The notes below the pieces were generated by a model. The model was not told the DNA's origin. It did no database searches and saw only the letters and a program-made list of their open reading frames with translations. Shown piece after piece: positions 733-5,146 of a DNA stretch of 6,422 bases. The stretch is from Candidatus Pacearchaeota archaeon (GTDB taxonomy: Archaea > Nanoarchaeota > Nanoarchaeia > Pacearchaeales > GW2011-AR1), in the NCBI GenBank assembly GCA_002686195.1, contig NZAS01000142.1, positions 1 to 6,422 of the forward strand. Direction: 5' to 3'. The translations under genes were made by a program, and so were the position numbers. Every line of letters starts with the position of its first letter. Position 1 is the first letter of the stretch.

Positions 733-3633
733 TTATATATTGGCTATAGAAAACTCCGCAAATGTATTGATACCCTTTTTGGATTTCAACATCTGTTCTA
801 CCTTCTGTTGATTGGCATGACTGAGATTATCAAACACTTTGCACATTGCCGATGCACTATAAACATCAACTTTATGTCCATCAATTTCTGCGGACTCTTT
901 GTTAGCAGCAATCTTACGAATGATGTCCATAGATTCAAAAACTTCTTCTTTTATTCCCTTATCCTTCATAAACTTTTTTATTCTCGGATCATCAAAAAAC
1001 TTTTTAAATGCGGGTCGAATATCACCCTTGGGACCTTCCTTTTTAAGAATATCCTCAACATCATCCCAAACCTCATCATCGCCAATCACATTGAAATACT
1101 TTTTATCTGCACCCTTTGCAGGAATAGGTCGTTTCATCAACTTCATCACCTTATCATATTCCTTTTGAGTAGATGGGATTGCCCATGTACCTTCATGGAT
1201 ATAATCTTCTCGGGCCATACGACCCTTTATGACATCCTTGCGTTTCTTCTCCATACCTTTCAAACGACCACCGGGCTTCAACTTCTTGACTTTGCCTCCG
1301 CCCCTTTCAAACTTTTCAATGTCCTTATCACTTACGGCACTCTTTTTGGCAGTCGGTCGGATGCTCTCGTTAGATTCTTCGCAACCATCACCTACAGGAT
1401 CATCGTCCTCATCTTCTTCAGTATTTACTTTTTTTTTAACTCTAGCAGTTTCGATAGCTTTCTTCAAGGCGGGTGGGAGTTTGCCTTTTGTTTGTGTTTC
1501 TTCTTCGTGGTCACCTTCCCAATTCTTGTCAACGTAATCGAAAAACTTTTTCTTTTTCTCGTCATCCATCTCTGCAGGACTCTTTGCACCAAACTTCTTC
1601 AGTGCCGCTCGGAAAAACTTTTCATATTCTTCCTTATCGCCTTCTGTCATCATATTTCTATGATGCTCACGGGATTCAAAATGTGTATCTTTGAAATCGT
1701 CCATATCTTCAAAGTCATCCTTATCACCATAACCACTCTTATGATACCATGCCCAAATATCTTCGATACTCTTACCAGTAACTTCCCATTCATCCTGACC
1801 TGGGTTTACATCCTTTTGAGATATCTTTCCTTTGAGGCGAAACTTCGCTAGAGACTTTTTCATCTCTTTATTATCCATTGCATCAAAGTGACCTTTGACT
1901 GCTTCATGGATAGTATCTTCATTTTGTACTTTAATATCAGCAATTTTACCTTTAAATTCTTGCTCCACTTCAGCCGCAACCGATTTTAATTCTTTATCAT
2001 CACCACCTACACGATAAAACTCTACAACTTTACCACTAATATCTATTTCTAATTTTCCAGGAGAGATGGGTGTGGAGAAGTTTTTTACAAAAGCCACTGC
2101 GGACTTTGCATCTCTATCAGACTTAAACGTAAACTCAACACTATATAAACCACCACGGGCCCAGGCGGGCAACCCTTCGTGGATGGTTTCTTCGTTGGCA
2201 TCTTGCAACGCAGCCTGGACTGTAGGCTCATCACCAAGGCCTCGTTTGATTTTTTCAATCTTCTTCCAAGCGCCCGTCATGTTGCCTTCCATATCATAAG
2301 CAATCTTGATGGCCTTCTTGATATCTTTAGGTCGGAACTTGCCTTCCTCTAACTCATCTTCTTCTTTGACTGTAGACTTTAATTTATTGAGTCGTTCTTT
2401 TCGCATTGCAATACGTTTTAGAGTTTCTTTATACTGTTTAGTTCGGCCATCAACTTTTTGAGGAGCAGTTGCTTCAGCATCTGTAGCTTCTTCTACTTCA
2501 GGAGTCGTCGGAGTATCCGCTTGTGCTACGTTAGCACCTGCCTTCCAGACACTTAAGATAGTATCTTCAAGACTTACACTTTTTGATTTTAGATATTTTT
2601 CTGTCATAGTTTCTTCGGTTTTTTGACTGTCCTTTAGTTTCTGTTGTACCTTGGTCAGTTGTTGAACACGCTCCTGTGCTTTAGCAATTTCTAATTGCGC
2701 CTGTGCAATAGCCCTTGCTATTTTTAGTTCTTTCTTCTTTGCTCGGTCGAGCTTTTCTTTATTGGGATCTCCTTCTTCAAAAATAGATTCGTTCTTGGCA
2801 ACTTTAGTAGCAATAGCCATCTTGACTGACTTCCACCGTTCACCATATTTCTTTTTCATCTCTGAATCATCTATTTTTTGAGCGATTTCCTCTCGACGTT
2901 TTAGTTCTGTTGAACTCAATTCTCTTTCATCTATATTTATAATTTCTTTAATTTCTTCTTTGATAGACTCAATACTAGTTGCCATATCACCTTGTGCCAT
3001 AGTAACACCAGTATCTCTCTTATACAAATAATGTTTAACACTTCTTGGATTTTTAACACTTTTCAAAGTAATCTTTTCTACTCTCATTTTACCAACAACA
3101 TTTTTGGCTGTTACTTTGAATGTGTCTTTGCCGCGAGACATAGCAGAAGTATATTCTATTGTGACAGTATCACCTTTCTTTAATTTATCAAAGAGTTTAT
3201 TTAACTTGGGGTCATTCATTTTTAACCCTTCACCAAGTCCTTCTGTTCTCAAACGAGGCTCCCGTCTATTCCAAGATGGGTCAGTTAGTTTGAGATTAGT
3301 TTCATCATTATTCAAAGGATTATTATCTTTGTGATGAACATCTTTGCCGTCGCCTCGTGCGGCCTTACCGTTCTTTATCATAAGACGGCGAGCTCTCAAA
3401 CGAGCAGCATTCTTTTCTCTCTGTTCGGGTTTGGAATGATAGTTATCATATTCCTTTTTATAATTACGTTGTGCCTCTTCAATTTGTTCGGCAGACATTC
3501 TACGTTTACGTTTATAGACTTTAGGTTTCTTCTTAACTACCACAGTGGAATCATCATCTCCAGTTCCAGGCACTGCTGTACCTGTAGCATTAGTGGGAGC
3601 ATCTTCTTTCAAATAATGACTAAATCTTTTCAT
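733..3633 (-). CDS. Giant modular structural protein with HNH-like N-terminal domain; candidate prohead-protease-processed polyprotein
   Basis: This 966-aa, highly charged (Lys/Glu/Asp-rich) protein has no membrane segment and only two cysteines (C751, C931). It starts MKRFSHYLKE, a leader style I associate with capsid-interior and structural proteins of marine T4-like phages. The order seen is: basic region 34-90; HNH-like signature 96-123; beta-rich module about 137-216 (KKGDTVTIEY onward); helical basic module about 237-282; coiled coil about 295-340; SLEDTILSVWKAG 354-366; helical module about 432-482; alpha/beta module 488-573; modules about 578-660, 667-708 and 755-808; module 815-898; C-terminal module 902-966. 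Sites of the form (I/L)-X-E followed by G/A occur at 133-136, 428-431, 484-487, 575-578 and 812-815, mostly between modules, matching the T4 gp21 cleavage rule. The start has a GAGG site 9 nt upstream and overlaps the preceding gene by 14 nt. The ORF itself is certain. Its role as a packaged polyprotein is inferred; a scaffold or neck protein is possible. Confidence 0.8.
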   Translation of the reverse strand: MKRFSHYLKEDAPTNATGTAVPGTGDDDSTVVVKKKPKVYKRKRRMSAEQIEEAQRNYKKEYDNYHSKPEQREKNAARLRARRLMIKNGKAARGDGKDVHHKDNNPLNNDETNLKLTDPSWNRREPRLRTEGLGEGLKMNDPKLNKLFDKLKKGDTVTIEYTSAMSRGKDTFKVTAKNVVGKMRVEKITLKSVKNPRSVKHYLYKRDTGVTMAQGDMATSIESIKEEIKEIINIDERELSSTELKRREEIAQKIDDSEMKKKYGERWKSVKMAIATKVAKNESIFEEGDPNKEKLDRAKKKELKIARAIAQAQLEIAKAQERVQQLTKVQQKLKDSQKTEETMTEKYLKSKSVSLEDTILSVWKAGANVAQADTPTTPEVEEATDAEATAPQKVDGRTKQYKETLKRIAMRKERLNKLKSTVKEEDELEEGKFRPKDIKKAIKIAYDMEGNMTGAWKKIEKIKRGLGDEPTVQAALQDANEETIHEGLPAWARGGLYSVEFTFKSDRDAKSAVAFVKNFSTPISPGKLEIDISGKVVEFYRVGGDDKELKSVAAEVEQEFKGKIADIKVQNEDTIHEAVKGHFDAMDNKEMKKSLAKFRLKGKISQKDVNPGQDEWEVTGKSIEDIWAWYHKSGYGDKDDFEDMDDFKDTHFESREHHRNMMTEGDKEEYEKFFRAALKKFGAKSPAEMDDEKKKKFFDYVDKNWEGDHEEETQTKGKLPPALKKAIETARVKKKVNTEEDEDDDPVGDGCEESNESIRPTAKKSAVSDKDIEKFERGGGKVKKLKPGGRLKGMEKKRKDVIKGRMAREDYIHEGTWAIPSTQKEYDKVMKLMKRPIPAKGADKKYFNVIGDDEVWDDVEDILKKEGPKGDIRPAFKKFFDDPRIKKFMKDKGIKEEVFESMDIIRKIAANKESAEIDGHKVDVYSASAMCKVFDNLSHANQQKVEQMLKSKKGINTFAEFSIANI
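1189..1200 (-). other. Candidate prohead-protease site IHE|G (residues 812-815)
   Basis: The third I-H-E-G copy sits between a lysine-rich segment (781-808) and the folded-looking module that begins TWAIP. Confidence 0.55.
1900..1911 (-). other. Candidate prohead-protease site IHE|A (residues 575-578)
   Basis: The second I-H-E copy follows an E-D-T context that nearly repeats the E-E-T-I-H-E context at 481-486, and it is followed by alanine. It separates two modules of different composition. Confidence 0.55.
2176..2187 (-). other. Candidate prohead-protease site TIHE|G (residues 483-486, cut before G487)
   Basis: I484-H485-E486 is followed by G487. This is the first of three I-H-E-G/A copies. 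It follows an E-E-T context and separates the helical module from the GLPAWARGG module. Confidence 0.55.
2341..2352 (-). other. Candidate prohead-protease site LEE|G (residues 428-431)
   Basis: L-E-E-G lies at the end of an acidic linker and immediately before the helical module starting GKFRPKDIKKA. It fits the gp21 rule. Confidence 0.45.
2934..2941 (-). promoter_or_regulatory. Possible T4-type late promoter box TATAAATA inside the 966-aa gene
   Basis: The minus strand carries an exact TATAAATA, the late promoter -10 consensus of T4-like phages. It also encodes I-N-I in the 966-aa protein, and no start codon with a good ribosome site follows closely. It could help transcribe the distal polyprotein part and the lysis genes, or be a chance match in AT-rich DNA. 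Confidence 0.22.
3226..3237 (-). other. Candidate prohead-protease site LGE|G (residues 133-136)
   Basis: The tetrapeptide fits the gp21-type rule (I/L)-X-E followed by a small residue. It lies just after the HNH-like region and just before the beta-rich module, at a place where a domain boundary is expected. Confidence 0.45.
3262..3366 (-). other. HNH-nuclease-like motif inside the 966-aa protein (residues 90-124)
   Basis: Residues 98-123 read D-V-H-H-K-D-N-N-P-L-N-N, then N-L at 113-114 and W-N-R at 121-123. This is the typical pattern of HNH homing-type nucleases: a histidine pair, the DGNPxNN-like turn, an asparagine before a leucine, and a last Asn/His. The third position is Asn (N122) rather than His, which is common in H-N-N variants. 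Basic, arginine-rich residues at 72-93 precede it and could bind DNA. Catalytic activity is not proven; the fold may be kept only for DNA binding. Confidence 0.6.
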
Positions 3634-4534: not shown

Positions 4535-5146
4535 TCATGCTATCTTAGCGAATACCTTACATCTGCCATTATCTAGTTCCATATATTTAAAGTTAATACT
4601 CAATCCACCGTCATGCCTATGAGAGATACCATCATCATTGACCAACTGGCCATCTTCGGTGCCACTGCCATCATTTCCATAACGGCCACCAAACTGTGAT
4701 AACGGTGAAGAAACTTCTCCTTCTCCCTCGTAAATATCGACCTGACCAAACTCAAGGCCGACTCTCATAAGTTTCTGTCGTAATTCTGCTATAGCGTGAT
4801 TTGCATTTAGATACTCTTTATCAGCAATAGACCCAACAAAAGCATTGACACGTTTACGAACTTCGGGATCAGCAATGTCATGGACATCCATCCCACCATC
4901 TTCAACTGGTATTTGAGAAGCTCCTGCAACACTACTTTCTTCTATAGGATCAAATTCATTCTTTCTGAGTTTTGCTCCCTTCTTTGCTGCTTTAGACCGA
5001 CTCTTATCAACTTTATATCCAGCTTTGGAAGTTTTCTTCTTATAAGCCTTTGCAGATTTTTTACCTGCTGCTGATTTACGATATTTTGCCTGCTTCATTT
5101 TAGCTGCGGCTGTCATCTTTTCATCAAAGTCTTTAAATGTTTTCAT
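4535..5146 (-). CDS. Structural-type protein with lysine-rich leader and predicted protease site, 203 aa
   Basis: The protein starts MKTFKDFDEK, the same MK-x-F style as the 966-aa protein. Residues 1-63 hold 24 Lys/Arg, looking like a nucleic-acid- or scaffold-binding leader. Residues 66-71 read D-P-I-E-E-S: the gp21-type motif I-E-E followed by S falls exactly at the end of the basic region. A second match, I-Y-E-G, is at 138-141. The middle is helical (about 93-130). The C-terminal third is a glycine-rich, beta-like domain (PLSQFGGRYGNDG, then DDGISHRHDGGLSINFKY) that I recall from marine T4-like phage structural proteins. Removal of the first 70 residues would leave a 133-aa mature protein. 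The start overlaps the 52-aa gene by 14 nt, with an AGGA site 10 nt upstream. A precise virion position cannot be given. Confidence 0.75.
   Translation of the reverse strand: MKTFKDFDEKMTAAAKMKQAKYRKSAAGKKSAKAYKKKTSKAGYKVDKSRSKAAKKGAKLRKNEFDPIEESSVAGASQIPVEDGGMDVHDIADPEVRKRVNAFVGSIADKEYLNANHAIAELRQKLMRVGLEFGQVDIYEGEGEVSSPLSQFGGRYGNDGSGTEDGQLVNDDGISHRHDGGLSINFKYMELDNGRCKVFAKIA

Follow-up and report, generated by a model that had tools for sequence, protein, structure and literature searches.

The stretch of DNA analysed here at its full length of 6,422 nucleotides (contig NZAS01000142.1 of assembly GCA_002686195.1, deposited as Candidatus Pacearchaeota archaeon; hereafter the window) raises the question of why a single gene should encode a long chain of unlike domains, separated by what look like recognition sites of a viral protease. 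The gene in question is an open reading frame (ORF) on the minus strand at 733..3633, which starts with ATG and encodes 966 amino acids (aa); the window appears to derive from a marine T4-like (Kyanoviridae-like) phage, i.e. from a virus of bacteria. A hydrophobic-x-Glu-type signal is the known cut site of the T4-type head-building protease. An earlier note, made from the letters alone, had read the frame as a phage polyprotein with such sites reiterated between its modules. The frame is real and the motifs reported there are all in place, namely IHE/G at residues 484-486 and 812-814, IHE/A at 575-577, LGE/G at 133-135 and LEE/G at 428-430 (the slash marks the predicted cut), as well as the weaker forms LKE/D at 8-10, IFE/E at 284-286, MTE/G at 662-664 and VFE/S at 898-900. 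Three further sites were found, IEE/A at 51-53, IKE/I at 228-230 and IDE/R at 234-236.

The gene product is probably a polyprotein, processed by gp21, in which internal head proteins are joined. Sequence comparison supports one chain of swappable modules with a T4-like leader in front and gp21-type sites at many of the joints, together with leader-bearing relatives of the modules and gp21 in several related phages; from these we infer that the chain is cut and that its pieces remain with the DNA and are delivered into the host. The N-terminal T4-like capsid-targeting leader would bring the chain into the prohead core, where the gp21-type protease of the phage would cut after hydrophobic-x-Glu at the joints. 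Up to about 11 pieces, 43-150 residues in length, would result, and these would include an HNH-nuclease-like domain, a ferredoxin-like domain and a small beta-barrel. The pieces would stay with the DNA and would then be delivered into the host.

Modules of the chain and the motif at their joints

The protein begins with the capsid-targeting-like leader MKRFSHYLKE (residues 1-10; 3604..3633), with a predicted cut after E10, and continues with a head peptide, DAPTNATG..GTGDDDSTVVV (residues 11-53; 3475..3603), which holds a gp23-like motif and ends in IEE. It is followed by the HNH-nuclease-like module (54-135; 3229..3474; phrog_4590, E 6.8e-12), known also from leader-bearing genes in L006, L007 and L018, the small beta-barrel module M3 (136-230; 2944..3228), the helical module M4 (231-286; 2776..2943), which ends in SIFE, and a long helical stretch with a linker (287-430; 2344..2775; AlphaFold helix at 291-348). 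Further along are the helical module M7 (431-486; 2176..2343), an optional cassette LPAWARGG.. (487-577; 1903..2175) that some relatives have and others lack, the ferredoxin/ACT-like module M9 (578-664; 1642..1902), ending in MMTE, and M10 (GDKEEYEKFF..) with an LPPALKKAI element and a basic linker (665-814; 1192..1641; phrog_28651). The chain is completed by a cassette GTWAIP.. (815-900; 934..1191), found in relatives P0003 and P0005 and not in others, and by the C-terminal module M14 (901-966; 736..933); all these features are on the minus strand. HNH-like, beta-barrel, ferredoxin-like and helical domains are thus combined in one chain, and the predicted pieces of 4.7-17.2 kDa are mostly basic, with two acidic ones.

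Pfam HNH_3 matched 34 of 35 members at E <=0.1, with the window match below the curated cut-off. By structural comparison M3 resembles an SH3/chromo barrel and the fold of M9 is ferredoxin/ACT-like; in both cases Z is too low to assign a family. M10 (1192-1641) weakly resembles the T4-like antiholin family PF24205, which was matched in 7/35 members at E <=0.1 (best 0.014, below cut-off). The AlphaFold model (35 rows, mean pLDDT 57) has confident islands at about 240-285, 435-481, 578-653, 667-706 and 900-966, with weak stretches between them and a moderate island at 139-219 (pLDDT 54-76). Stretches with pLDDT <50 hold 16 of the 20 [ILVMF]xE sites vs 35 of 81 other Glu residues.

A protein search, with scoring confined to the 7989 candidates that had most words in common with the query, returned 138 relatives at E <=1e-3. 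Among the best 120 of these, which were listed, 43 share the hallmark GTGDD.STV; these are metagenome proteins of 544-1137 aa, and P0001 is approximately the window protein itself. Modules are gained, lost and moved among the 43: the TYIFPILD cassette, for example, is preceded by INE/ in P0002, by IHE/ in P0004 and by IRE/ in P0018. Joints were defined as ends of local alignments among these relatives and the window (241 unique contexts on the left, 327 on the right). The [ILVMF]xE motif was present <=4 residues from the joint in 89 left contexts (37.2 expected) and 130 right contexts (50.1 expected), and neither [ILVMF]xD nor [ILVMF]xK was enriched at the same joints. When residue pairs spaced by one residue were ranked blindly, LxE came top. 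Given a Glu, [ILVMF] at P3 was in 1.95-fold excess (168/594 near joints vs 89/615 far from them), other offsets giving 0.70 to 1.15-fold, and G/A/S was 1.64-fold enriched at P1' of Glu residues near joints. Among 256 unique insertions the motif was found at both ends in 69 and at one end in 97; the corresponding shares of random segments were 1.8% and 21.8%. No P value is attached to the joint and insertion counts since the cases overlap in ancestry.

Conservation of single sites was assessed in an alignment of 34 relatives, with counts only where a row has a residue and the motif defined by I, L, V, M or F at P3. The best-kept motifs were those at E53 (33/33), E236 (32/33) and E286 (32/33), the last with P2 free (D, N, E, K, V or F) while P3 and P1 were held. 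Glu was kept at E10 in 32/32 rows, at E230 in 31/33 (motif 22/33) and at E577 in 23/29 (motif 22/29). The motif was partly kept at E430 (8/19), E814 (5/7) and E135 (11/20; seven other rows have a different cassette there).

Leaders, head peptide and protease in related genes

Relatives of the modules stand at the front of other genes as well. For six modules we collected upstream contexts from the listed proteins and from ORFs of the fetched loci, within <=8 residues and with W and Y allowed at P3; the motif was present in 142 of 173 unique contexts against a background of 17-20%, and in all 33 contexts of M3. Where a module starts <=26 residues from the ORF start, which applies to four modules of the window, the motif was at the joint in 22/25 contexts (M7 11/11, M3 5/5, HNH 3/5, M10 3/4). 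The leaders of M7 in 11 other proteins end in IRE, VRE, VDE, MSE or ISE followed by G or A; those of M7 and M3 are mostly MTRY.., MSKHGQ.. and alike, of a type other than that of T4. The M10 genes in L058, L059 and L061 carry the T4-type leader, their fronts being MKTYKGFIRE/GSKEEY, MKSFRKFVKE/GTKEEY and MKAFKSFMSE/GSKEEY, to be compared with MMTE/GDKEEY inside the window protein. An HNH relative with a T4-like leader reads MKTYQELSDSINE/RNYKKEYDNYH, the window IEE/AQRNYKKEYDNYH, and a cassette from outside the window occurs as MKGFGTFIKE/NWKDEATELK in L058 vs LRE/AVDKDAARELE in P0025.

Some of these leaders are near copies of the start of T4 ipII and ipIII, MKTYQEFIAE/A. A ten-residue pattern of the T4-type leader, looked for at 24,537 Met residues in the fetched loci, coincides with the first Met in 47 unique ORFs and has 10 matches elsewhere. 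On contigs bearing polyprotein genes such leaders also open other genes, as MKTYKEFIAE in L056 and MKTYKEFLTE in L057. On contig G015 (L150, 4491-8374) five successive ORFs, with one overlapping frame left out of the count, begin with T4-like leaders, four of them within the strict pattern, and a gp21 homologue is present in the same record. The last of the five resembles a nucleotidyltransferase by eye. In six podovirus-type phages picked from 42 records (four Autographiviridae, one Zobellviridae and one unclassified; no protease search was made in those six) the HNH relative begins a few residues from the Met, without a leader.

The head peptide is similar to the front of the major capsid protein: the predicted maturation context of Melnitz gp23 is FLSE/AAPTNSTGSAV, that of the window LKE/DAPTNATGTAV, and gp23 contexts elsewhere are FLNE/AAPTN (G015) and LSE/AAPVNATG (G013). 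By analogy with T4 these gp23 contexts would be cut positions. When Melnitz and HTVC008M were scanned in six frames for a loosened version of the motif, there were three matches, namely both gp23 proteins and Melnitz gp30. In L048 (27893) and L049 (22687) gene 30 and the major capsid protein have in common the pattern APTN/APAN..[ST]G shortly after a Glu; this pattern may belong to the protease site or may have been copied as a segment. On L116 (9992-10546) the order is reversed, with the HNH module first and a GTGDDSSTVVV head peptide last, behind VTE/D.

A gp21 homologue was found in several related phages. The family PF03420 (gp21-type, S77) was matched in 2/10, 4/6 (Melnitz again) and 4/20 records searched, its bearers being Melnitz, HTVC008M, phiM12, BUCT-ZZ01, G008, G013, G015 and two metagenome-assembled genomes, where the contig may be a different one. 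In the circular Melnitz record gene 30 is separated from the protease (gene 207) by 38 kb in one direction and by 103 kb in the other, and in HTVC008M gp143 is 42 kb from the protease.

Points of disagreement and alternative explanations

Several observations weigh against reading the gene as a cleaved cargo polyprotein. In 2000 shuffles the raw number of motifs in the window protein was at chance ([ILVMF]xE 20 vs 22.0 expected, [IL]xE 12 vs 10.2), so that of the reiteration between modules claimed by the earlier note, the placement at joints across relatives stands but the mere number does not. Fuller forms were above the shuffles ([IL]xE[GA] 6 vs 1.4, P 0.0035; [ILVMF]xE[GAS] 10 vs 4.1, P 0.0075; IHE[GA] 3 vs 0.01, 0/2000 shuffles), and the excess is clearer in placement at joints than in number. 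At the joints EE, ExxE and ExxxE score about as high as LxE; the motif is missing from both ends of 90 of the 256 insertions, and 147 of 256 have a non-hydrophobic xE at both ends vs 19% of random segments, an excess that is weaker but real. Among single sites E486 (2/24) and E900 (2/14) are poorly kept, and E345 (4/34), E382 (2/7), E424 (7/19) and E538 (0/1) are not generally kept; E960 (motif 7/14) sits inside the folded tail module. Other low sites are E226 (1/24), E896 (1/8) and E287 (1/28). At E664 Glu is kept in 25/32 rows but the motif only in 14/32, nine relatives having Arg at P3 (joint IRTE/G, e.g. P0008). Since conservation is so unequal from site to site, the list of the earlier note proves to be a mixture of good and poor ones: its expectation that I/L-X-E is kept among homologues was borne out at E286 and E577 and in part at E135, E430 and E814, but not at E486 and E900.

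The leader adds to these points. At P3 of E10 (motif at 3604-3612 of the window) 25/32 relatives have Trp, three each have Tyr and Phe, and one has Leu (I/L/V/M/F only 4), the window having Leu, so most relatives depart from the T4 rule at this position through W-x-E; after the leader, P1' is Asp in the window and Ala in T4. Leaderless HNH genes on L095, L116 and L124 encode products that bear the head peptide. No PF03420 match was obtained on the contigs of 8-30 kb that bear the closest relatives; considering the distances between gene and protease in Melnitz and HTVC008M, absence from short fragments says little. None was obtained on the L007 and L018 records (75.6 and 84.3 kb) either, both of which have leader-bearing HNH genes; these records may be fragments, but their lack of a match counts against the proposed processing.

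Three other explanations have to be weighed against the processed polyprotein. The gene could encode a core or scaffold protein of the prohead, cut by gp21 at many places as T4 gp22 and gp67 are, with pieces that leave the head and no cargo. Such behaviour has precedent, as gp22, gp67 and gp68 of T4 are described as cut into several fragments that are mostly removed (PMC9026906, PMC5694885). We nevertheless regard it as unlikely: several of the pieces are predicted folded domains, one of them HNH-like; in other genes related domains are preceded by one leader, the arrangement of the T4 internal proteins; and the Melnitz counterpart is at least 38 kb from the gp21-gp23 cluster in the circular record, a cluster with its own core-protein gene. 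No core- or scaffold-named family was among the Pfam and PHROG matches of the window or the 35 members. Slightly less likely still is an uncut multidomain protein, in which Glu-rich linkers would act as flexible joints, and as points of recombination, with the motif spread by linker copying. The joints are indeed Glu-rich in general, as the scores of EE, ExxE and ExxxE imply, and the three IHE linkers, which share much codon sequence, may be copies of one another; this explanation is opposed by E286, where P2 is free and P3 and P1 are held in 32/33 rows, and by the persistence of the motif where an unrelated leader replaces the whole upstream sequence.

The protein might finally act outside the head, for example on the tail or the host, with a leader that only resembles a capsid-targeting sequence. 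The neighbouring genes, which are of unknown function or spanins, and the Trp at leader P3 in most relatives would agree with that, but T4-type ten-residue leaders mark the first Met of 47 unique ORFs against the 10 matches elsewhere and open five successive ORFs, four in strict form, on one gp21-bearing contig, and we consider this explanation improbable, more so than the other two.

The locus and comparison with known systems

Upstream of the polyprotein gene are a DUF7207 gene and a phrog_18642 gene, and directly downstream is a spanin pair, consisting of an inner spanin (248-718; phrog_739, E 6.7e-12) and an outer spanin lipoprotein (3-248; phrog_812, E 3.3e-7). A 203-aa upstream neighbour on the minus strand (4535..5146) starts with MKTFKDFDE and has an inner IEE/S; at the corresponding place of L054, a polyprotein contig, a gene starts with the T4-type leader MKTYKSFVTE, and the neighbour in the window is perhaps another leader-bearing gene. 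Positional counterparts of the polyprotein at one locus are of 58 aa in C48C1 (leader and head), 172 aa in Melnitz (gp30; head and the tail module M14) and 222 aa on the contig of L059 (head and HNH; locus neighbour recognised by eye only), and window-type genes there reach 544-1137 aa. The Melnitz and C48C1 genes lie, like that of the window, directly after a phrog_18642-like neighbour, and their head peptides, GTGDDSSTVVV and GAGSDSSTVIV, are as in the window type; HTVC008M gp143 (359 aa) is one gene further on and without the head motif. All three have few or no cassettes, unlike the window. The size series fits cassette insertion at joints, the direction of change being presumed.

One may tentatively propose, with close to even chances, that marine T4-like phages have an open system of cargo loading, in which effector cassettes pass back and forth between the polyprotein and separate capsid-targeted genes with the prohead-protease motif as a common joint, and one leader loads about ten proteins in equal numbers per head for injection. 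If true, the reading as a gp21-processed polyprotein would explain a set of large unannotated marine-phage proteins and would be a case of the morphogenetic protease processing a viral polyprotein within the capsid. Possible head contents of T4-like phages could also be listed by a rule on sequence, namely a leader together with a hydrophobic-x-Glu joint, and the old question of what relatives of T4 inject would become directly testable at the predicted termini. Among the papers that the literature searches listed, none describes, as far as titles and the starts of abstracts tell, a gp21-type protease that cuts a phage polyprotein into cargo domains; closed papers and preprint servers were outside the scope.

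The closest known systems are the T4 internal proteins IPI, IPII and IPIII and Alt, which are cut by gp21 and share with the window an N-terminal leader ending in hydrophobic-x-Glu. The strict ten-residue (L/I)-x-E leader of T4 type is present in the window, whereas most of its relatives have Trp at P3. In T4, Asp instead of Glu at P1 prevents processing of the leader (PMC9026906). The internal proteins of T4, of about 8, 10 and 20 kDa (PMC9026906), are small, cargo-sized and accompanied by a gp21-type protease, which is matched by the predicted pieces of the window and by several relatives. They are, however, separate genes with N-terminal processing (in Alt also C-terminal; PMC9026906), while the window has about ten modules in one chain; we therefore describe the window protein as working like a T4 internal head protein and not as a plain member, being 966 aa long and of many modules instead of a single small protein. 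The T4 core proteins gp22, gp67 and gp68 have several gp21-type sites per chain (PMC9026906, PMC5694885), as in the window, but gave no sequence match to it, and the window modules are folded, shuffled and present in other genes.

Inner-body and ejection proteins of phiKZ and SPN3US are likewise head proteins cut by a prohead protease, with long propeptides cut repeatedly (PMC10052503). The SPN3US site is A-x-E, and the multiply cut regions are propeptides and not a series of cargo domains as proposed for the window (PMC10052503). Polyvalent proteins of phages and conjugative elements combine, like the window, many unlike domains per chain and are proposed to be injected and processed (PMC5512222). 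Their processing is ascribed there to a built-in zincin-like metallopeptidase (PMC5512222). None is seen in the window, and no peptidase was among the Pfam matches of the 35 members, a search that a divergent one could escape; the sites of the window fit a prohead protease instead.

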